Source: Flexistipes sinusarabici DSM 4947
GTDB taxonomy: Bacteria; Chrysiogenota; Deferribacteres; Deferribacterales; Flexistipitaceae
Assembly: GCF_000218625.1 (NCBI RefSeq)
Contig: NC_015672.1
Span: forward strand, 62,001-126,000
Direction: 5' to 3'
Length of the DNA stretch: 64,000 bases
Part shown: positions 47,274-57,389 of the stretch, one piece after another
Position numbering within the stretch: position 1 is the stretch's first letter
Layout of the letters: each line of letters begins with the position of its first letter
Notes under the pieces: generated by a model
Told to the model about the DNA's origin: nothing
Database searches by the model: none
What the model saw: the letters and a program-made list of their open reading frames with translations, nothing else
Made by a program: the position numbers and the translations under genes

Positions 47274-47885
47274 TCAACTGTAGTCGATATTGACTTTTCT
47301 GTTATGTAAAGTCAGTCGGTTTTCAACAAAGAGCCGGACTGCCTCCGGATAGATTTTATGCTCTTCTTTCAAAATTCTTTCAGAGAGATCGTTTACGGTA
47401 TCGTTTTCCTTTATTTCAACAGCTTTTTGGAGAATTATGGGGCCGTGATCCAATTCTTTGTCCACAAAATGAACAGTGCAGCCGGAAATCTTAACCCCGT
47501 AGTCCAACGCCTGCTTTTGTGCGTTTAAGCCGGGAAAAGAGGGCAGAAGGGAAGGGTGGATATTCATAATTCTGTTTTTAAATGTGTCTACAAATTTTGC
47601 CGAAAGGAGCTTCATGTAACCGGCCAGGCATACCAGATCTGTTTTCCGGGATTTCAGGATATCGATAATTACTGTATCATAGGCCGTTCTACTGCCATAT
47701 TCTGAAGGATTTACAAAATAAGAGTTTAAACCCCTGTCCTTGGCAAACTGTAAACCGGGGGCTTCAGCTTTGTTACTGACAACGGTCGTTATCCTTGCAT
47801 CTGCTATATAACCGGCTTCAATTGAGCTGTATATAGCCTTGAAATTGCTGCCCCGGCCGCTCAAAAGAACTGCAATATTTTTCAA
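47274..47885 (-). CDS. purN: Phosphoribosylglycinamide formyltransferase
   Basis: Folate-dependent formylation of GAR in purine synthesis. 203 residues with LLSGRGSNFKAI, VSNKAEAPGL, and the catalytic set NIHPSLLPSFPGLNAQKQAL...GCTVHFVDKELDHGPIILQKAV (Asn, His, Asp). It overlaps purM by 4 nt. The last 82 nt before the MOSC-fusion start hold no obvious terminator. Confidence 0.96.
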   Translation of the reverse strand: MKNIAVLLSGRGSNFKAIYSSIEAGYIADARITTVVSNKAEAPGLQFAKDRGLNSYFVNPSEYGSRTAYDTVIIDILKSRKTDLVCLAGYMKLLSAKFVDTFKNRIMNIHPSLLPSFPGLNAQKQALDYGVKISGCTVHFVDKELDHGPIILQKAVEIKENDTVNDLSERILKEEHKIYPEAVRLFVENRLTLHNRKVNIDYS

Positions 47886-48916
47886 AAGTCCACTCCGCTG
47901 ATCCGGACTTCTTTGTTTGCCGTGATTTTTCCTATTTCATATGCGCTTATTAGATTCTTTTTCAGAAATTGTTTGAAACTCTCATAATCAGCATAATCAA
48001 CTACCATAACCATGCCTATACCCATATTAAGAACCCTGTACAGCTCTCTCTCTTCACCGCTGTATAGTTTTTTGATAAATTCATAACACTGCATCTGCGG
48101 TATTTTATCTCTGTATATGTCGGCTCCTGTTCCCGGTGGAAGAATTCTCGGGATGTTTTCGTAGAATCCGCCGCCGGTTATATGGGCCATTCCTTTGATA
48201 TTTATTCCGGAATTTAATATTTCCATCGCATCTTTTACATATATTTTAGTGGGTTCAAGGAGCATTTCACCGATGCTTGTTCCCTTTACAAATTCATCCT
48301 CAAATGTATATCCTGACTCTTTTATCAGTTTTCTTAAAAGGGAATAGCCGTTGCTGTGGAATCCGGTTGAAGGCAGTCCGAAGACTATATCTGATTCTTT
48401 TATATCTGAACCGTTAATAATTTTTTCTTTATCCACAATTCCCACAGCAAAGCCTGCAAGATCAAAATCTTTATCACTGTACATGCCGGGCATTTCAGCC
48501 GTTTCTCCGCCGAGAAGAGCTACATCTGCCTCTCTGCAGCCTGCGGCGATACCTTTAACAACTTCAGACATATTCTCTATGTTCAGCTTTGAGGTGGCCA
48601 AATAGTCCAAAAAAAACAGGGGCTTGGCCCCTGGTACTATCAAATCATTAACACACATCGCCACAAGGTCTATACCGACAGTGTCGAACTTCCCCGTTTC
48701 AATTGCAACTTTCAGTTTTGTTCCGACTCCATCGGTGCTGGAACATAGCAAAGGATTTTTAATTTTACCAACTGTTTCGGCTATATCGTAAAATCCTGCA
48801 AAGCCACCTATATTGCCGGGGACATTTGCATTTAAAGTGCTTTTTACGAACGGTTTTATTTTATTTACAAAATCGTTTCCGGCGTCAATATCCACTCCGG
48901 AAGATTTATAATCCAT
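47882..48916 (-). CDS. purM: Phosphoribosylformylglycinamidine cyclo-ligase (AIR synthetase)
   Basis: ATP-dependent closure of FGAM to AIR. 344 residues. Features: DYKSSGVDIDAGNDFV at the start, GGFAGFYDI, LLCSSTDGVGTKLKVA, ALLGGETAEMPGMY, GLPSTGFHSNGYSLLRKL and HITGGGFYENIPRILP. It begins 1 nt after the acidic receiver gene at the end of the chemosensory operon. It therefore has no independent promoter visible and probably shares that transcript. Confidence 0.97.
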   Translation of the reverse strand: MDYKSSGVDIDAGNDFVNKIKPFVKSTLNANVPGNIGGFAGFYDIAETVGKIKNPLLCSSTDGVGTKLKVAIETGKFDTVGIDLVAMCVNDLIVPGAKPLFFLDYLATSKLNIENMSEVVKGIAAGCREADVALLGGETAEMPGMYSDKDFDLAGFAVGIVDKEKIINGSDIKESDIVFGLPSTGFHSNGYSLLRKLIKESGYTFEDEFVKGTSIGEMLLEPTKIYVKDAMEILNSGINIKGMAHITGGGFYENIPRILPPGTGADIYRDKIPQMQCYEFIKKLYSGEERELYRVLNMGIGMVMVVDYADYESFKQFLKKNLISAYEIGKITANKEVRISGVDF

Positions 48917-48917
48917 A

Positions 48918-50276
48918 TTACTGATTTTCCTGCCCGCCTTTTTTCAAACGTTCAATCTCTTCCAGAATAAGCTTTTCAGACAGATCGGGAACAACCTCCC
49001 ATATTACCTTTTCGAGATTTTCCCTTAACGACTCTTTTATCACATCCTTTAGAAAATCCTCTCCAAGAGTCTCTTTTACTGCATCTTTTATCACTGCTTT
49101 ATCCAAATCACCTTTGTAATCGTCCATGACACTCTTCAAAGCATCAATAAATGCTTCTTTGTTAAAATCGGCATACCTCTCTTCGGTTGATTCTGCCGTT
49201 TCTTTTATTTGTTCTGTACTGCTTTCCGGTTCATAGGTTTCTTCCTCCGGTGATAACTCTTCAGGCTGTAATAAAGGTTCCTCCTGAATCTCTTCCTCTT
49301 CTGTTTCTGATGTTTCCTCAACAATATCATCCAGTGCTGAGCTTAATTCTTCTTCTTTTTCAACTTCTCCACTCATTTCTATTGAAGATGTTTCTTCTGT
49401 GGGCTCCTGTTCTGCTTCCTCATTTCCCAGATCATCGAAAATATCTTCAAAGGATTCCTCTCCCAGTTCTTCACCGAACTCTTCCTTCTGTTCTTCATCA
49501 GGCTGTTCTGTTTTGGCTTCTTCATTCATTTCCATAGAGGATGTCTCTTCTTTGGTTTCCTGCTCTTCTTCTTTTTCCAGGTCATCGAAGATATCCTCAA
49601 AGGATTCATCTTTTACTTCTTCGTCAAACTCTGGCTGAGGCTCCTCCGTTTGCTCTTCTGTTTGTATATCTTCGAAGATGTCCTCTTTTTCATCTTCCGT
49701 TTCCGAAAAGGACTCTTCCTTCGGTTGGCCCGTCTTGGATTCTGTATCAAAGGTTTCGGTTAAATCTTCCTCTTCTTTTTGTTCCTCTGTACTGGAATCT
49801 GCAAATGATTCGGCAGTAACGGAGGGTTCTTCTTTCTGTTCTTCTGCTTCAGTTTCAGAGTATTCCATTTTATCATCGCTTTCAGGCTTTTCTTCCTGCT
49901 CTTCTGTCTGGGAAGGCTCTTGGGCGTATTCGTTGAGTTTTTCCTCAAGAGAGCTTGAGTTAAAAGGCTTTACAAGAAATCCGTCAGCACCTAAACGCTC
50001 GACTTCGGCTTCCCCAATTTTGTCGAAAGCGCCCACCAATAGTAATATTTTAGCCTCAGGCGTTGCATTTTTAATTTTCGCGATAAAGTCTGATGTTTTT
50101 ACATTTTCCAGTTTATTGTCAAGGAGAATTATATCGGGGTGAAAGTCTTTCAGCTTACTTTCTGCATCTTCAGCTGAAAAAACCTTGCTCACTTCGAACT
50201 GTGTGCTGTCTATTGAAAGGTCGATAACCCTGTGGATCGTTATGCTGTCGTCAATTAGTAATATTTTGCTGTTCAT
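48918..50276 (-). CDS. Receiver-domain protein with long acidic repeat region and conserved C-terminal helix
   Basis: 452 residues from ATG 50276 (AGGGG 6 nt upstream). Residues of about 1-115 form a receiver with Asp9-Asp10, phospho-Asp53 and a terminal KPF. Residues of about 120-370 are an extremely Glu-rich, low-complexity region with an internal duplication: SFEDIFDDL followed by EETSSMEM recurs as SFEDIFDDL followed by EETSSIEM. The last 75 residues are helical and end WEVVPDLSEKLILEEIERL, a motif I associate with delta-proteobacterial receivers of motility systems. It overlaps the CheW-like gene by 26 nt. Possibly the output or a phosphate sink of the chemosensory operon. Confidence 0.75.
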   Translation of the reverse strand: MNSKILLIDDSITIHRVIDLSIDSTQFEVSKVFSAEDAESKLKDFHPDIILLDNKLENVKTSDFIAKIKNATPEAKILLLVGAFDKIGEAEVERLGADGFLVKPFNSSSLEEKLNEYAQEPSQTEEQEEKPESDDKMEYSETEAEEQKEEPSVTAESFADSSTEEQKEEEDLTETFDTESKTGQPKEESFSETEDEKEDIFEDIQTEEQTEEPQPEFDEEVKDESFEDIFDDLEKEEEQETKEETSSMEMNEEAKTEQPDEEQKEEFGEELGEESFEDIFDDLGNEEAEQEPTEETSSIEMSGEVEKEEELSSALDDIVEETSETEEEEIQEEPLLQPEELSPEEETYEPESSTEQIKETAESTEERYADFNKEAFIDALKSVMDDYKGDLDKAVIKDAVKETLGEDFLKDVIKESLRENLEKVIWEVVPDLSEKLILEEIERLKKGGQENQ

Positions 50277-50631
50277 GGTCAACCCCTATGATTTTTTCTA
50301 CATCTATTAAATAGCAGGTTTCATTGTTCTCAGATTTAACAGCTCCTAATATGGGTTTTACCATAAATAATTCTTTTTCAAAAGGAATTATTTTATCAGC
50401 ATTTTCAATTGATTCCACCTTTTCCACATGCAGGGCAACGATATTCTCTTCATGCTCTACAAAGATTATATCACCATTTTCCGTTTTTTCATCAAAGAAA
50501 AGCGAACCAAAATTAACTACCCTGAAATCATCAAGTTCGCCCTTTATTTCCTTATAACGGGATATGTGCAAAACATTTTTTATATCAACAAGAAATTTAT
50601 AATCTTTGTCTCTAAACGTTAGCCCTTTCAA
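50251..50631 (-). CDS. CheW-like scaffold protein, divergent
   Basis: A 126-residue protein with the strand pattern of a CheW domain (YKFLVDIKNVLHISRYKEI, NGDIIFVEHEENIVALHVEKVESI, VKPILGAVKSENNETCYLIDVEKI). It lacks the better conserved residues of the cheW gene at 55196. It overlaps the CheA gene by 20 nt and the acidic receiver gene by 26 nt, so it is firmly part of the chemosensory operon. Probably a second coupling protein or receptor-array component. Confidence 0.6.
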   Translation of the reverse strand: MKGLTFRDKDYKFLVDIKNVLHISRYKEIKGELDDFRVVNFGSLFFDEKTENGDIIFVEHEENIVALHVEKVESIENADKIIPFEKELFMVKPILGAVKSENNETCYLIDVEKIIGVDHEQQNITN

Positions 50632-53008
50632 TCATTACTCCCTTAACTTTATTCATAATGGATTGTTCGCGTATAGGTTTTATTATAAACTCATTAGCAC
50701 CGAGCTCCATAGCTTTCATCCTGTGTTTTTCTGTTGCCCGTGATGTTAATACGAAAATATGTGTCAGATTATCGCCCTTAATTGTCCTTATATGCTCTAT
50801 AAGCTCATAACCGTTCATAGAAGGCATTTCTAAATCTGTAATTACCAAATCGTAACGTTTGGTTTCGAGCTTTCTCAGCGCATCCACACCGTCCACTGCT
50901 TCGTCAACATAGTATTCGTCAGAAAGCAGCTTCTTCAGATATTTCCTAACACTGATTGAGTCATCAACAACGAGGATGCTGTTGGAGATATAATTGATTC
51001 CTTTTGTCTTTTTCTCAGAACCGGTGTCCCTTTTATAGGTAATGGTACCGCTTTTTGTTTCCATAAGTTTTATCGTATCGATGATAAATCTTACTTCACC
51101 CTGGGGACCTATATTTGCCCCTGCAAAGTAAGACAGGCCGCTGAGAAATCTGCCCATTTTTTTCGTAACGGCGGTTTCCCTGCCAATGAGCTCATCCACG
51201 GTTAATACGTAACTTTTTCGGGGGCCGTCCACAAGTATTCCGATGTTTCCTTCTTTGAAACTTGCCTGCGATGTCTGCTTAATAAGTGTTCCAAGGTCAT
51301 GAATTTCATAGATGTCACCACGTACTTCATAGAAAAAGTGGTTTCCTATTTTTCTTATTTCATCCGGATGAATCTCAAACGTTTCATGAACACCTATGAT
51401 AGGGATTGAAAACAACTGTTTATTTTCCCTAAGAACAAGATAATCTGCGATTAGGAGTGTAATAGGGACGTTTAATATAAATGTGGTGCCTTTGCCTTTT
51501 TCACTGTTTACATAGATCGAACCGCCCAGGGATTCAATTTTCTTCTTTACGACATCAAGCCCCACACCTCTGCCTGATACATCTCCGGCACCTGCTTTTG
51601 TGGAGAAGCCGGGGTGGAATATTAAATCCATTACTTTATCGGCTCTCATATTATCTGCATCATATCTGGCCAGAATCCCCAACTCAACAGCTTTGTCTTT
51701 CAGCTTCGCCGGGTCTATACCTTCACCGTCGTCTGATATTTCAAAGACAATTATGTTACTTTCTCTGCTTGCACTCAGGTTAATGATACCTTCTTCGTTT
51801 TTTCCGTATTTTTTCCTTGTTTTCCTGTCTTCAATACCGTGGGATACAGCATTGCGGATAATGTGGATAATTACCTCATTGAGTGCGTCAATTAGGGATT
51901 TGTCAAGCTCAATACTTTCACCTGATAAGTTAATATTCACCAGCTTGTTTTCAGAGATTGAAGCTGTTCTTACCGTTCTGAGTGCTATATTAAAAAGCCT
52001 GTCCACGGGGACCATTCTGATATCTGTAAGATTTCTCTGGAGAGAATCCGTGATTTTTCCGATATAATCTGTTTCCTCTGTAAAGTAAGTGAAATTAGTG
52101 AGAATATCGTTGATGATTGTTACAATATCATTACCTATTTCAGCCAGTCTTCTGGAAAAGATGTTAAAGTCATCATATCTGTCGAATTCTGTTTCACTGA
52201 AATCGGCAAATGTTGAGTCTTCAGCAGGCATTTCCCGGAGATTTTCCATAGAGTATGCATATTTTTCCTCAAACTCTTTGATGATATTCATAAGCCTGTT
52301 TTTGGTATACTCAAGGTCTACACCGAGATTCTTAAGAGCATGCACCCTGTCTGTCTGTCTGTTTTTGTTGGTAATCAGTTCTCCGACAAGATTCAGCAGG
52401 TTATCCAGTCTCTCCAGGCGAATCCGAATAAATTCATCGGAGTATGAGGTGTCTAAGGTTTTGTTATACTTTTCATCAGCATTTTCGAGTATCGCTTTTC
52501 TGGTTGCCGATTCCACCCTTTGGGTTTTTTCCTCTGCCAGCTCGGTTTGTTCTGGTGTTTCGGACCCCTCTTTCCCGGCCGAACTTTCATCTGATTGTTC
52601 CGTAGATTCTTGCTGTTTTTGTTCAGATGTTATGTTTTCTTCCAGTATTTTATCAAAGTCTTCCGTTTCTTGTTCGTTGAGATCCCTTTTGTTTTTATTA
52701 ATAAGACCATTGAATTTTTCAACAAAATCCAGGAGAAAAGTTACAAGCTTTTCCTCCGGAGCAATGTTTCCCTTCCTTAACTGATCCAGGGTATCTTCCA
52801 GTGAGTGTGCAATATGGGCAACGTTTTTGAAGCCAACCATTGCTGCCGAGCCCTTTATTGTATGGGCACTTCTGAAAAGTTCATCGATTACAGACCAGTT
52901 CCCCGGATCCCGTTCGAGTACGAGGAGGCCATTTTGTATGGCCTCAAAGTGCTCAGCACTCTCCATCAAAAAAAAGTCTACCAGTTCTTTTTTATTAATT
53001 TTTGCCAT
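50612..53008 (-). CDS. cheA: CheA-type hybrid histidine kinase with C-terminal receiver
   Basis: A 798-residue chemotaxis kinase. The Hpt domain carries phospho-His49 in RSAHTIKGSAAMVGF. An acidic linker (about 130-170) follows, then a dimerisation helix pair and the HATPase with IIRNAVSHGIEDRKTRKKYG and GRGVGLDVVKKKIESLGG. A CheW-like domain spans about 535-660, and a receiver at about 675-795 has ILVVDDSISVRKYLKKLL and VITDLEMPSMNGYELI. This single-Hpt CheA-REC form is typical of Pil/Chp (PilL) and Frz systems rather than flagellar CheA. It follows the MCP gene after 2 nt; no CheR or CheB gene is present in the window. Confidence 0.93.
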   Translation of the reverse strand: MAKINKKELVDFFLMESAEHFEAIQNGLLVLERDPGNWSVIDELFRSAHTIKGSAAMVGFKNVAHIAHSLEDTLDQLRKGNIAPEEKLVTFLLDFVEKFNGLINKNKRDLNEQETEDFDKILEENITSEQKQQESTEQSDESSAGKEGSETPEQTELAEEKTQRVESATRKAILENADEKYNKTLDTSYSDEFIRIRLERLDNLLNLVGELITNKNRQTDRVHALKNLGVDLEYTKNRLMNIIKEFEEKYAYSMENLREMPAEDSTFADFSETEFDRYDDFNIFSRRLAEIGNDIVTIINDILTNFTYFTEETDYIGKITDSLQRNLTDIRMVPVDRLFNIALRTVRTASISENKLVNINLSGESIELDKSLIDALNEVIIHIIRNAVSHGIEDRKTRKKYGKNEEGIINLSASRESNIIVFEISDDGEGIDPAKLKDKAVELGILARYDADNMRADKVMDLIFHPGFSTKAGAGDVSGRGVGLDVVKKKIESLGGSIYVNSEKGKGTTFILNVPITLLIADYLVLRENKQLFSIPIIGVHETFEIHPDEIRKIGNHFFYEVRGDIYEIHDLGTLIKQTSQASFKEGNIGILVDGPRKSYVLTVDELIGRETAVTKKMGRFLSGLSYFAGANIGPQGEVRFIIDTIKLMETKSGTITYKRDTGSEKKTKGINYISNSILVVDDSISVRKYLKKLLSDEYYVDEAVDGVDALRKLETKRYDLVITDLEMPSMNGYELIEHIRTIKGDNLTHIFVLTSRATEKHRMKAMELGANEFIIKPIREQSIMNKVKGVMIERANV

Positions 53009-53010
53009 AA

Positions 53011-55182
53011 TTATACTTTAAACTTATTAACAGCCTCTTTGAACATATCCGCAAGCTGAGACAGGGTCGAGACAGTCATATTGGTCTTTTTAACGTCTTC
53101 AGCTGTTGTTTCGGAAATTTCTCTGACTTTTTCTATACCTGCGGCAACTTCTTCAGCTTCTTTGTACTGTTTTTCAATATCTGTATAGATACTGTTGATT
53201 GAGTTTTTGGCATTATCCAAGGATTCATTAATTGTTTTCAGTGACTCCCCGGTATTTTCAGCCATATCTGAACTTTTTTCAACATTTACTGTACTTTCCT
53301 CAACGAGTTTAACCGTGTCGGCTGTTTCAGTCTGTATCCCTTTAATCAGATCGGCAATCTCTTTTGTAGCTGTGTTACTTCTTTCGGCGAGTTTTCTGAT
53401 TTCATCGGCAACAACGGCAAAACCGTGTCCGTATTCTCCAGCTCTTGCCGCCTCGATGGCTGCATTTAGAGCCAAAAGGTTCGTCTGGTTGGAAATATCG
53501 CTGATCACATCGGTGATTTCACCGATTTCCATTGATCTTTCCCCGAGAGTTTTCACTTTTTTACTGGCCAGCTGTGAGTATCTTCTAACGCTGAACATAG
53601 ACTCAATCGTTTCATCAATAACCGACTTACCTTCTCTGGCCATATTTGCTGCATTTTCTGTGACATTAACGGTATCCTGAGCTTTGTCGGCAATTTCTTT
53701 ACTCAGTGCTCTGAATAGCTGCATCTTTTCATTGATGGACTCAAGTTCATTAATCTGGGTTGCTGCACCCTCGCTGGTCTTTTCCGCCGACTGCAGAAGT
53801 TCCTCAGTAGCATCGACAATCGAATCACCGGCATTTTTAATGTCCTCAATGAGTTCTTTCATGCTACCGGTCATCATATTAAAGGCATCCGCAACAGAAC
53901 CGAGTTCATCCGCAGTAACTTCAGCCTCTACTGTTAAGTCACCCTCGGCCGCATCCGAAACTGTATCCATAAGTCCGACAATCTGCCTCTGGACTCTCTG
54001 TCTGTCTTCTTCTGTCTGTATATATTCGGTCGTTCTGTCAAGCATTTCGTTAAAACCCTGGACAAGTCCACCCAGCTGGTCCATTCTTTCGGCTCCAGTT
54101 TGCACCCTTACTTCATAATTGCCGTCTCTGACCTGCTGCATGGCTCCGGAGAGAGCAAAAACAGGAGAAAACTGTTTACGGAAACCGATATATGCAATGA
54201 TGGTTAAAATCAGAGCGATTAAAGCGGTTGCGCCGATTGAATATGTACGCGCCTGATGAATACCCTGTAGCATATATTGTTTGTTTTTCAAAAATCCCAC
54301 TACCATTCCGAAATTTCTGTAATAAACAGTTTTAAATGATGCGAGATAGACATTTCCTTTGTAAGTGATTTCCGTTTCAAGAGCTTTATTTTCCGGCAGT
54401 TTTTCACTGATTTTACTGTAAAGCTTGTCAAGATTATTGGCTTCTGAAGGTAAGATTTTAGAATTGTTTGCCATAGGTGACATCAAAAGGTTGCCGTCAA
54501 TATCATAAATTACTGTGAACCCGCGGTTTTCAAGGCTGCTTTCACCTTCGTGGCAGTTGGAGCAGTCTTCCCTGACCGGTTCGTGAAACTTGTGCTTTGT
54601 AAATTCCCTGTTGGCGTATGAAAGCAGGTAATCACCACTTGCCAGGATTGCAATATTACCAACCTTTTCTCCGTTATACGTTAAAGGGGTGTAGTAGATA
54701 ACATAAGGCAGATTCTGTGTTAGGTAGGGTTCAAAAAATATTTCACCCGGCTCAAGTGTTTCAAAAGGCATAATAACCATTTTGAAGTTAGGCATCTGCT
54801 CGGTAAATTTTTTATAACCCGTCAATATATTGCCGTCCTCATCAAGAACAGCTGCACCTTCAATAACCTCGGATTCAGCAACAAGTTCTTCGACAAAGCG
54901 GGAGCTTTGGGTCATATCCCCTTCTCTGGCGGCCTCTTCTCCCAAAAAAGGAACAAGTGAAATTGTATTGAGCCTTCTCTCAACACTTTCATCGTGCTCA
55001 TGAAGGGCATCACCAAAGTTGCCGATCCGGGTGGTGATATCGTCATAGATGTTGTTAATGATGCTTGTTTTGGACTGGTTGTAAACAATCACCGCTGAAA
55101 GGGTGGCTGCAATAAAAATAACCAGGATAAATACAACCAGAATTTTTAATTCAAGGGTTTTTTTAGTGGATTTTTCTGCCAT
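53011..55182 (-). CDS. Methyl-accepting chemotaxis protein with CXXCH haem motif in the sensor domain (PilJ-like)
   Basis: 723 residues. Membrane helix 1 at about 14-34. The extracytoplasmic sensor is at about 35-310. Membrane helix 2 at about 313-331 is followed by tandem HAMP-like segments and the signalling hairpin ([25 protein letters not shown] and [17 protein letters not shown]). The sensor has a single C207-S-N-C-H211, the c-type haem attachment motif, with His198 and His200 nearby as possible axial ligands. A haem chemoreceptor would respond to redox state or a gas. The signal AAGGAG precedes ATG 55182. Confidence 0.88.
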
Positions 55183-55195
55183 AGGGTTCTCCTTG

Positions 55196-55672
55196 TTAGC
55201 TCGTTCTGAAATTAATAAATACTTTATTTATATCCAATATACCGTATAATTCATCATCTATATTAATAAAACCGGAAAAAAGACCTTCTGCCTCTTTATC
55301 GGCATAATCCTGTTCCCTGACGTTTATCATACGAGCTGCCTCATCAGCCAAAAGGCCTATATATTCATTCTCAGTTTCCGTAATAACATATCTGCTTAAA
55401 CCTGTTCTTCTTACAGTGTCAATTCCGAATTCCACTCTTATGTCGATTATAGGTACTATCTCGCTTCTCAGGTTTACCACACCCAATACATGGTCCCCGG
55501 TACCGGGGACATTTTCAATTGTTTTGTCCAGGTCAATAATTTCCTTGATTTCATTAACATCAATCAAAAACGAATAGTCACTCAGTTTACATAACAGATA
55601 TCTGGCAACAACCCGCTCTTCAGGATCTTCTATTTCTCCTTTTACTTTTTTAAGAAGTTGATCCTTTAGCAA
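55196..55672 (-). CDS. cheW: CheW-type coupling protein (PilI-like)
   Basis: A 158-residue CheW domain ([52 protein letters not shown]). It links the chemoreceptor to the kinase. The TTG start overlaps the stop codon of the receiver gene before it by 7 nt (TTGCTAA). No independent ribosome-binding site is visible, which suggests translational coupling. Confidence 0.9.
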
Positions 55673-56031
55673 TTTAGCAGATCCTTAACAGTTTTTACCA
55701 TTTCATCCATTTCAAAGGGTTTGACCAAATATTCGTCTGCCCCCTGCTTTTTCCCCCAGAATTTATCACTATCCTGACCTTTGGATGTAACAATGACAAC
55801 CGGAATATCTTTCATGCTTTCATCTTTCTTAACCTGTCTGCATACCTGGTATCCGTTTTTACCGGGCATAATTATGTCCAGAATTATGCAGTCAAACCTA
55901 TCCTTTTTAATTGCATCCAAAGCAGCATCCCCGTCCTCTACTTCGGTAACATCAAAACCGGCACTTTTCAGAGCACTTGACATCATTTCGCGCTCTGTTG
56001 AGCTGTCATCCGCTAACAATACTTTTAACAT
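55666..56031 (-). CDS. PilH-type receiver protein
   Basis: A 121-residue CheY-like receiver. LLADDSSTEREMMSSAL, phospho-Asp in CIILDIIMPGKNGYQV, VVIVTSKGQDSDKFWGKKQGADEYLVKPF. The K-x-Q-D-S-D-K-x-W-G-x-x-Q-G-A stretch is characteristic of PilH proteins of type IV pilus chemosensory systems. I chose ATG 56031, 8 nt after AGGGG, over GTG 56040, which overlaps that signal. It starts 12 nt after the PatA-like receiver. Confidence 0.88.
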   Translation of the reverse strand: MLKVLLADDSSTEREMMSSALKSAGFDVTEVEDGDAALDAIKKDRFDCIILDIIMPGKNGYQVCRQVKKDESMKDIPVVIVTSKGQDSDKFWGKKQGADEYLVKPFEMDEMVKTVKDLLNC

Positions 56032-56043
56032 TTTACTCACCCC

Positions 56044-57294
56044 TTATATTTTTATAAAACCTGTCAATATTAACGTGCCAAGTGAATTTTTGGCCATTTG
56101 TGTATTATTACCAAAAAATTTTAATATTTGCCCAACATTTCTTTTGCCATCGCACAGAGACAGAATTTTTCGTTCAAGTTCGCTGAAGTTACCTTCTGTT
56201 TGTCCTGCTGCCTGTGGAATCAGGTTGTCGTCATAAACGATTTTGTTAATTTCAGCCTTTTCTTCCAAATAATCACTAAAGCCGGACTTGAGATTATCCA
56301 TGTTTATGTAAACACTGTCCACTATGTCTCTATTATCAATGTTTTCGTCCACAAAATACCTTGATTCTTCCAGGTTGAGGGCAGTGTTGATCATGTTGTA
56401 GGTATAGTATTCAAATGTACTCTGTATTTGAGCATCGCTTATATCCATCGCTTTAAGCTGATCGTATATTTCGGCAAATGTATCGGTTTTGAAAAGCGAC
56501 ACACCGGTAACATGTTGGAAGATTTCAGATATCTGTTCAACCCCAAACTTGCTGCTTTTAGCAAAAAATAATTTTCCCTCATTGAAACTGAAGCTGAATG
56601 TTTTTTCGAAATTAAAGATATTCAGTACACCCGTTCCACTTTTCATAATGTTTATTAAATCGTCCAGTTCCGGGGATTCCCCCTTTATTTCCGCTTCCTG
56701 ATACCCTGTTTCAAGCTGAATCATTTTTTGAATTATTTTTCTCAGATGAGGCTGGACTGATTTGATAATTTTCGACTCCAAACCAGGAGCTTCATCTAAA
56801 ACGGAGGATTCGGATTCTGTTTCGGCACTTTCTTCCGGTACACTTTTGTCCTCTGCCGGTGCTTCCGAAACAAGAGGTTCCTCAGGAATCTTTGTTTTCT
56901 CCTCCGGGATATTTGCAGCCTGTTCTTCTTTTGCACCGAGCATTTCTTCCATTTTCTCCACTATTTCATCAGGCTGAAAGGGTTTGGGGATATAGTCAAT
57001 GTTAGCAAACTTGGCGATAAATTTTTCACCAACGTCTTCTGCTTTGGAAGTTATTAACAAAATAGGAATGTCCAAATTCAGCTCGTTTCTGACTATTTTG
57101 CAAAACTGAAAGCCGTTGACTTTAGGCATGATAAAGTCCAGAAGTATAATGTCAGGTTTGTAATTTTTGACAAATTCCAGCCCCTCTTCTCCGTTATCGG
57201 AGAGTATCAGGTCGTATTCATCATCATCAAATATCATTTTAAAAAGTCTGTGCATAGTTTCGCTATCATCGATAGCTAAAATTCTGGTTGGCAT
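56044..57294 (-). CDS. Receiver with PatA/DUF4388-like output (PilG-like)
   Basis: A 416-residue response regulator. The N-terminal receiver (ILAIDDSETMHRLFKMIF, phospho-Asp in IILLDFIMPKVNGFQF, ITSKAED, PKPFQ) is followed by an acidic linker of about 50 residues. A long alpha/beta region (about 190-350: SGTGVLNIFNFEKTFSFSFNEGKLFFAKS) resembles DUF4388/PATAN. A winged-helix-like C-terminus follows (RKILSLCDGKRNVGQILKFFG). A PatA-type receiver first in a pil-like operon corresponds to cyanobacterial PilG. It is the first gene of the operon and has its own promoter. Confidence 0.8.
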   Translation of the reverse strand: MPTRILAIDDSETMHRLFKMIFDDDEYDLILSDNGEEGLEFVKNYKPDIILLDFIMPKVNGFQFCKIVRNELNLDIPILLITSKAEDVGEKFIAKFANIDYIPKPFQPDEIVEKMEEMLGAKEEQAANIPEEKTKIPEEPLVSEAPAEDKSVPEESAETESESSVLDEAPGLESKIIKSVQPHLRKIIQKMIQLETGYQEAEIKGESPELDDLINIMKSGTGVLNIFNFEKTFSFSFNEGKLFFAKSSKFGVEQISEIFQHVTGVSLFKTDTFAEIYDQLKAMDISDAQIQSTFEYYTYNMINTALNLEESRYFVDENIDNRDIVDSVYINMDNLKSGFSDYLEEKAEINKIVYDDNLIPQAAGQTEGNFSELERKILSLCDGKRNVGQILKFFGNNTQMAKNSLGTLILTGFIKI

Positions 57295-57355
57295 GTCCGC
57301 CCTCTTGTCGTAATTTTGTTATATTTTAATAAAAAATTGCTGTATATTCCCAACA

Positions 57356-57383
57356 ATTATAGCATAGATATAAATATTTCAAA
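57356..57383 (-). promoter_or_regulatory. Extended -10 promoter of the chemosensory operon
   Basis: The minus strand shows TATAAT (57361-57356) preceded by TG at 57364-57363, an extended -10. A TTTGAA at 57383-57378 lies 16 bp upstream. The leader before ATG 57294 is about 55 nt. It lets the operon be transcribed separately from coaD, whose end lies 7 nt from the promoter. Confidence 0.6.
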
Positions 57384-57389
57384 CAAAAA

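Follow-up and report, generated by a model that had tools for sequence, protein, structure and literature searches.

Flexistipes sinusarabici DSM 4947 carries a chemosensory operon that, on balance, probably forms a single self-contained array of the type IV pilus (Tfp) class, in which a putative heme receptor would signal through CheA to PATAN-like, PilH-like and RomR-type regulators and from there to the pili. The operon lies in a stretch of 64,000 nucleotides, referred to here as the window, which corresponds to positions 62001-126000 of the single 2,526,590-base contig of the genome. Seven open reading frames (ORFs) occupy the minus strand between 57294 and 48918 in a head-to-tail arrangement, adjacent ones either overlapping slightly or lying no more than 13 bases apart. 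The chemosensory operon was confirmed as real and intact, and it extends past the span of 50251-57294 given in the original prediction, which had been made from the sequence alone; that span leaves out most of an acidic receiver protein (48918-50282). The gene order stated there, namely a receiver with a C-terminal domain, a PilH-like receiver, CheW, a methyl-accepting chemotaxis protein (MCP), CheA with one Hpt and one receiver, a CheW-like protein and the acidic receiver, was borne out by the ORFs and by Pfam:

56044..57294, minus strand: response regulator in the PilG position, receiver (Response_reg 1.5e-20, Pfam) followed by a divergent PATAN/DUF4388-like C-domain
55666..56040, minus strand: PilH-like single-domain receiver (Response_reg 6.7e-29; 55-99% identity in 10 relatives)
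55196..55672, minus strand: CheW in the PilI position (CheW 7.2e-27, Pfam)
53011..55182, minus strand: sole chemoreceptor, PilJ position (HAMP 2e-10 in two stretches, MCPsignal 4.8e-46, Pfam); periplasmic dCache-like sensor with CxxCH, two HAMP stretches and signalling hairpin, the membrane segments read by eye
54550..54585, minus strand: His200 and C207-x-x-C210-H211, the heme c attachment motif in the receptor sensor, invariant in 11/11 orthologues
50612..53008, minus strand: CheA with one Hpt stretch, H-kinase_dim, HATPase_c, CheW and a C-terminal Response_reg (Pfam)
50251..50631, minus strand: CheW2, a second, divergent CheW-like protein (CheW 3.9e-6; in 10/10 relatives, 26-100% identity)
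48918..50282, minus strand: RomR-type response regulator with receiver (Response_reg 5.4e-15), acidic linker and the hallmarks of RomR-C

A pilus-type operon as the only chemosensory system of the genome

Whole-genome searches found CheW-domain matches at three places, all inside this operon, a single MCP match, which is the operon receptor, and one CheA match at E ≤ 1e-60, again that of the operon. Neither CheR nor CheB was matched anywhere in the genome at E ≤ 0.001, so that their predicted absence holds genome-wide, and FlhA gave no match in the genome either. The genome therefore offers a minimal chemosensory system with one receptor, one CheA, no methylation enzymes and no FlhA. Type IV pilus machinery is present, so that the lack of such genes, which the original prediction named as refuting it, does not apply: PilB, PilT and two further PilT-like ATPases were detected (three pilT-like genes in all), PilM was detected and is followed by pilN-O-P-Q, and pilC stands beside pilB-pilT, the last two assignments being made by reading the ORFs. 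A GspE-like ATPase lies in a distinct gene cluster that resembles one for type II secretion. Flexistipes is also listed among groups with truncated pilins (PMC5174107). A PilB-like gene with an MshEN-like N-terminal part and, judging from the ORF without a profile test, apparently no ATPase domain (L014:9757-10872) is located directly upstream of a second pilT-like gene (L014:8672-9730).

These results bear on a published statement. The 2011 genome paper (PMC3236037) describes F. sinusarabici as non-motile, reports that cheB, cheR, cheV and cheW are missing and suggests the missing cheW as a possible cause of the non-motility. Contrary to this report, cheW is not missing, since it is found at 55196-55672 together with a second CheW-like gene, and the published suggestion is thereby corrected. 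The reported absence of cheR and cheB agrees with our genome search; cheV was covered only through its CheW domain, for which the matches are the three in the operon. No re-examination of the cheW claim was found in the literature searched.

The assignment to the pilus-type (Tfp, Pil-Chp-like) rather than the flagellar class is supported by the pilus genes, by the lack of an FlhA match and by the CheA phylogeny. CheA combines Hpt, kinase core and C-terminal receiver, and separate regulators occupy the PilG and PilH positions, as is characteristic of the Tfp class. In a tree of CheA cores built from 67 selected rows, which do not take in all of the 80 CheA-related loci, the 11 CheAs of this operon type formed one clade (100/100) apart from 19 Deferribacterota CheAs which we label flagellar-type. 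The joins of the operon clade to Nitrospirota, Acidobacteriota, cyanobacterial and Pil-Chp CheAs were weak with long branches, and the cyanobacterial, Deinococcus and Pil-Chp rows in particular had very long branches that make their placement unsure. The megaplasmid pDF308 of Deferribacter desulfuricans carries a CheA annotated as 'chemotaxis protein CheW' (L150:6962-9076), which groups with the flagellar-type Deferribacterota CheAs.

A full-length orthologue of the operon CheA (at least 41% identity) was detected in 11 of 50 Deferribacterota genomes searched, F. sinusarabici (G000) and 10 relatives, and the CxxCH receptor sensor occurs in exactly the same 11 genomes with one copy each. In all ten relatives the seven genes keep this order and are flanked by coaD and purM, which argues that the arrangement is more than chance. 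By comparison, PilM is found in 49/50 and FlhA in 45/50 of the genomes. Neither G000 nor its congener G016 (99% complete) gave a match to FlhA or CheR, and each has a single MCP. By comparison, G015, the third member of the genus, has FlhA along with four CheR places and seven MCP places; FlhA is likewise present in the other eight operon genomes, together with 2-6 CheR places and 7-16 MCP places. These numbers count places, of which some proteins give two. Between G000 and G016 the ratio of nonsynonymous to synonymous substitutions (dN/dS) ranged from 0.00 to 0.20 across the seven operon genes, indicating that the operon is maintained; the comparison of RomR with G015 was saturated and gave no value. 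Judging from these ratios, the operon is under purifying selection in genomes without FlhA.

The C-domain of the first regulator matched none of the Pfam families at E ≤ 5 and thus gave no direct DUF4388 match. Profile-profile comparison by hhalign with seven Nitrospirota first regulators yielded 97% probability with E 6.5e-11 over 202 columns. When four such first regulators were scanned with Pfam, DUF4388 was matched in two (L114 and L113, both part of the hhalign alignment) and not in the others (L124 and L106, both outside it). The predicted PatA/DUF4388-like label, for which direct Pfam support was not obtained, is thus backed at the profile-profile level. DUF4388 is taken here to be the PATAN domain. 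PATAN regulators are tied to the pilus in cyanobacteria, where PixE has been proposed to bind PilB1 (PMC7690835), and MglA/MglB are described as occasionally encoded near PATAN genes (PMC4316618).

The RomR-type regulator and its linkage to CheA

According to Keilberg et al. 2012 (PMC3441718), RomR consists of a receiver, an unstructured linker and a C-terminal part that has many conserved Glu residues and an invariant Trp and Pro; its occurrence in Deferribacterales was already published there. In the protein encoded by the last gene of the operon, W428, P432, E424, E429, E436, E442 and E444 of the C-terminal region are invariant in 11/11 orthologues, the linker has an Asp+Glu fraction of 0.42 (range 0.33-0.46 across orthologues), and Asp55 and Lys105 of the receiver are invariant. 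The acidic receiver, correctly noticed in the original prediction though not as RomR, just as the CxxCH of the receptor was missed, therefore fits RomR, the MglA/MglB polarity regulator, an identification that follows the published definition. All 26 genomes with intact RomR surveyed in PMC3441718 have MglA and MglB, Group 1 MglA has been reported in Deferribacteres (PMC4316618), and F. sinusarabici is listed in a romY comparison according to a figure legend (PMC9481161).

All ORFs of 70 residues or more in the 80 CheA-related loci, not all of which loci reach the operon end, were scanned with a RomR-C profile. Five proteins were matched, and the next match had an E of 1.8. Two of the five are from Deferribacterota (L056 and L060, corresponding to G015 and G008); they match the model by construction and add no extra cases. 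The remaining three are from Nitrospirota (L114, 7e-9; L059, 6e-8; L058, 8e-8), and since L058 and L059 are near-identical they represent two independent lineages. In all three loci the RomR-C protein stands after CheA and two CheW genes, so the CheA-RomR linkage spans two phyla, Deferribacterota and Nitrospirota. The profile found no RomR-C in the Acidobacteriota CheA loci of this set, for which the same limit at the operon ends applies. At a further locus, L057, the receiver protein is cut by the contig end and has Ser where others have Gly.

The receiver of the F. sinusarabici protein shows the motif LLLVGAFD at what is presumably the position where many receivers have Thr/Ser. The Nitrospirota protein of L114 similarly has LLVGAF. 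Such an atypical receiver may point to regulation without a classical phospho-switch. For RomR itself, no upstream kinase had been identified according to PMC6428892, which also voices doubts on RomR phosphorylation, and preliminary tests in M. xanthus showed no phosphorylation of RomR by FrzE (PMC3441718). Frz is encoded in 10 of the 26 genomes with intact RomR in that study, leaving 16 without Frz. With romR linked to one particular CheA in two phyla, a candidate for the RomR kinase is at hand, and if the candidate is right, the operon CheA would be the histidine kinase long sought for RomR, one other than that of Frz. The literature searched gave no report of RomR inside a CheA operon.

A Cache-type receptor with a putative heme

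Although sensor identity drops to about 25%, C207, C210, H211 and H200 are invariant in the 11 orthologues. The receptor probably carries heme outside the cell membrane, as read from the CxxCH motif. The alignment of the sensor holds 9 of the 11 operon genomes. Pfam matched dCache_1 in seven of these nine sensors (best E 6.4e-7, the first member falling under the curated cut-off) and sCache_3_3 in five, and none of the 10 families that one or more of the nine matched at E ≤ 1 was DUF3365/Tll0287. Membership in sCache_heme was consequently rejected despite the CxxCH. A PDB sequence search with the sensor profile gave a best E of 0.01 and was uninformative.

An AlphaFold model of the sensor, computed from three input sequences, had a mean predicted local distance difference test score (pLDDT) of 48.9 and shows two groups of strands parted by the CxxCH loop, which follows the last distal strand and precedes the proximal module (local pLDDT 31-38). 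The structural comparisons with this low-confidence model were taken as support only. The best 50 of 1306 Foldseek rows are mainly dCache domains, with the single-Cache WalK in first place, and the VIA-align rows listed are mostly ligand-binding dCache domains as well. VIA-align gave a Z of 11.8 with 2p7j_A (root-mean-square deviation (rmsd) 5.2, 218 residues aligned) and a Z of 10.2 with the dCACHE domain of TlpC, 5wbf_C (rmsd 6.3, 208 aligned); the single-Cache domains of WalK, YycG and CitA rank high on the distal half alone (WalK and CitA with Z 9.6-11.6). The 50 VIA-align rows listed include no structure of DUF3365, which excludes nothing. Taken together, the sensor looks like a double-Cache-like domain of about 275 residues, and if the model topology holds its arrangement differs from that of sCache_heme. 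It is thus a candidate for a second kind of covalent-heme Cache sensor; no heme-bearing dCache chemoreceptor was found in the literature searched. Chemoreceptors with c-type heme, namely DcrA, GSU0582 and GSU0935, have been linked to redox sensing (PMC8396549).

Receptor methylation was analysed with a pattern which we take to be the canonical methylation consensus. It was present in 0/11 operon receptors compared to 15/19 other MCPs from three relatives, the control comprising 19 MCP frames with a recognisable tip obtained from 20 stretches, some of which gave none and some two. The operon receptor seems to be built without canonical methylation sites even in genomes having CheR, and there is probably no adaptation by methylation. 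The distance from receptor tip to C-terminus is 140-142 residues in 11/11 orthologues, set beside the 40H receptor class, for which we assume 20 heptads per arm; several control MCPs also have 140-145 residues, so that this length does not discriminate. The relatives G013, G011 and G015 have other chemoreceptors of ~570-580 residues with CxxCH upstream of the signalling domain (L155, L164 and L171, respectively), which are probably a different heme-sensor family.

Proposed mechanism, alternatives and comparison with known systems

The operon suggests that a chemical, perhaps redox, signal steers the type IV pili. We propose that the sensor binds a c-type heme via CxxCH, to which His200 may contribute a second ligand, and that the heme would respond to redox conditions or to a gas, either NO or O2. 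From there the signal would run through the HAMP pair to CheA, from which phosphate would be passed to the PATAN-like regulator acting on pilus extension, as has been proposed for PixE on PilB1 in Synechocystis, and to PilH as a sink or antagonist. RomR, which this array would either recruit or regulate, would set the active pole through MglA/MglB. The response would not be methylation-adapted because the receptor appears to have no canonical methylation sites, and directional control would arise from polar localisation of the array and not from temporal comparison. A bolder version, in which a double-Cache receptor with an independently gained heme motif and a CheA directly controlling RomR together form a heme-to-polarity wire, providing methylation-independent, redox-steered pilus polarity in Deferribacterota with the CheA-RomR link shared with Nitrospirota, is put forward as possible but rather unlikely.

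Several points weigh against the proposed array. F. sinusarabici is described as non-motile, the heme is predicted from a motif and the sensor model has low confidence, the RomR receiver with its LLLVGAFD may not be a normal phospho-switch, and no MglA-like P-loop pattern was found in the stretches examined, MglA/MglB not having been searched genome-wide. Pilus-driven surface motility, the output originally predicted, is accordingly something we infer for a species described as non-motile (PMC3236037). The system might instead control pilus number, adhesion, biofilm formation, DNA uptake or second messengers in truly non-motile cells, which we consider possible but rather less probable. Such a function would be consistent with an operon that is nevertheless intact and under purifying selection and with pilus genes that are near-universal in the phylum, also in genomes without the operon. 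It is at odds with the literature tying PATAN and RomR regulators to pilus direction and polarity (PMC7690835, PMC3441718). For D. desulfuricans (G011), which carries the operon, the sources conflict: PMC3236037 describes motility by twitching, which speaks against a merely non-motile role, whereas PMC11896075 lists the species as non-motile, which speaks for it.

With a probability not far below even, RomR could be a mere neighbour that belongs to an MglA/MglB polarity module and shares the transcript for co-expression, receiving no phosphate from the operon CheA. The atypical receiver motif and the doubts and negative preliminary tests cited above for RomR phosphorylation are in line with this; the recurrence of the CheA-RomR linkage in a second phylum and the invariance of Asp55 and Lys105 argue for a functional connection. 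Regarding the sensor, CxxCH might be structural or a relic, with an ordinary small ligand being sensed via the dCache modules, in agreement with the Foldseek and VIA-align rows listed, which place the sensor with the ligand-binding dCache domains of PctA, CtaA and Tlp3. The strict conservation of both Cys and both His residues in so divergent a domain makes this rather unlikely. Finally, since G000 and G016 are devoid of the FlhA, CheR and flagellar-type CheA matches that their congener G015 has, the operon might be imagined as a decaying leftover of flagellar chemotaxis. The separate CheA clade, the intact ORFs and the low dN/dS led us to reject this idea, which we regard as next to impossible.

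Compared to known systems, the likeness to the cyanobacterial gene order drawn in the original prediction stands in part. A cluster on an Allocoleopsis plasmid has the same order of two response regulators, CheW, MCP, CheA and CheW, and no receiver protein is listed after its last CheW in a gene table that is incomplete by its own description. The pil/tax operons of cyanobacteria (Synechocystis tax1/tax3) likewise encode regulators of the PATAN type, for which an action on the pilus motor has been proposed (PMC7690835). The present operon differs in its CxxCH-bearing sensor. The order is not specific to cyanobacteria, as loci of Nitrospirota and Acidobacteriota also contain the PilH-CheW-MCP-CheA core, and the operon CheA does not group with the cyanobacterial row, the placement of which is unsure owing to long branches. 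Cyanobacterial ancestry was therefore not supported. Among the Acidobacteriota rows (L061-L135), many PilH-CheW-MCP-CheA clusters have additional receiver proteins and a further CheW downstream.

The Pil-Chp systems of Pseudomonas and Acinetobacter resemble the operon in having two regulators (PilG and PilH), a PilJ-type receptor and a CheA with a receiver, and in P. aeruginosa Pil-Chp polarises pili (PMC10519157). They differ in that CheA has one Hpt and 798 residues here, compared to a coding sequence of 4,521 bases for the Acinetobacter CheA, and in the PATAN-like domain on the first regulator and the added second CheW and RomR. In Myxococcus, a chemosensory system likewise acts upstream of the polarity regulator RomR together with MglA/MglB (PMC3441718), but there the kinase FrzE belongs to the alternative cellular functions (ACF) class and FrzZ is the output, whereas in the present case romR closes an operon with a CheA of the Tfp type. 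The Nitrospirota Tfp-type operons L058, L059 and L114 share CheW, MCP, CheA, two CheW and RomR, and L114 additionally encodes, upstream of these, a REC-DUF4388 protein and a receiver resembling PilH; the receptors of these operons differ, as the Deferribacterota sensor profile matched none of them at E ≤ 1e-3. Proteins of the sCache_heme family (DUF3365/Tll0287; GSU0582 and GSU0935) resemble our receptor in that a chemoreceptor carries CxxCH in a Cache-type sensor on the periplasmic side (PMC12889525; PMC8396549), but the sensor described here, of about 275 residues, is double-Cache-like and without a DUF3365 match. DcrA of Desulfovibrio vulgaris, a chemoreceptor with c-type heme, has been reported as a sensor of redox and O2 (PMC8396549); it differs by an additional cytoplasmic PAS domain, and the likeness is one of description.

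The original prediction had let the operon begin at a promoter. A consensus scan, which listed 34 sites compared to a shuffle mean of 25.7, gave no minus-strand site in the gap between coaD and the operon (57295-57389). In the relatives' loci L051, L052, L053, L054 and L055 the gap between coaD and the first regulator is ~0.5-1.1 kb and leaves room for an extra gene. At the other end, a purM-like gene, named by reading the ORF (47882..48916, minus strand), directly abuts romR; no functional part is proposed for it. It is the downstream neighbour in 10/10 relatives examined, and the purine gene and the chemosensory operon may share a transcript. Near-identical transposase copies are present in the F. 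sinusarabici genome at L012, L014 and L015, the copy at L015 being a single ORF of 439 residues and those at L012 and L014 being split.

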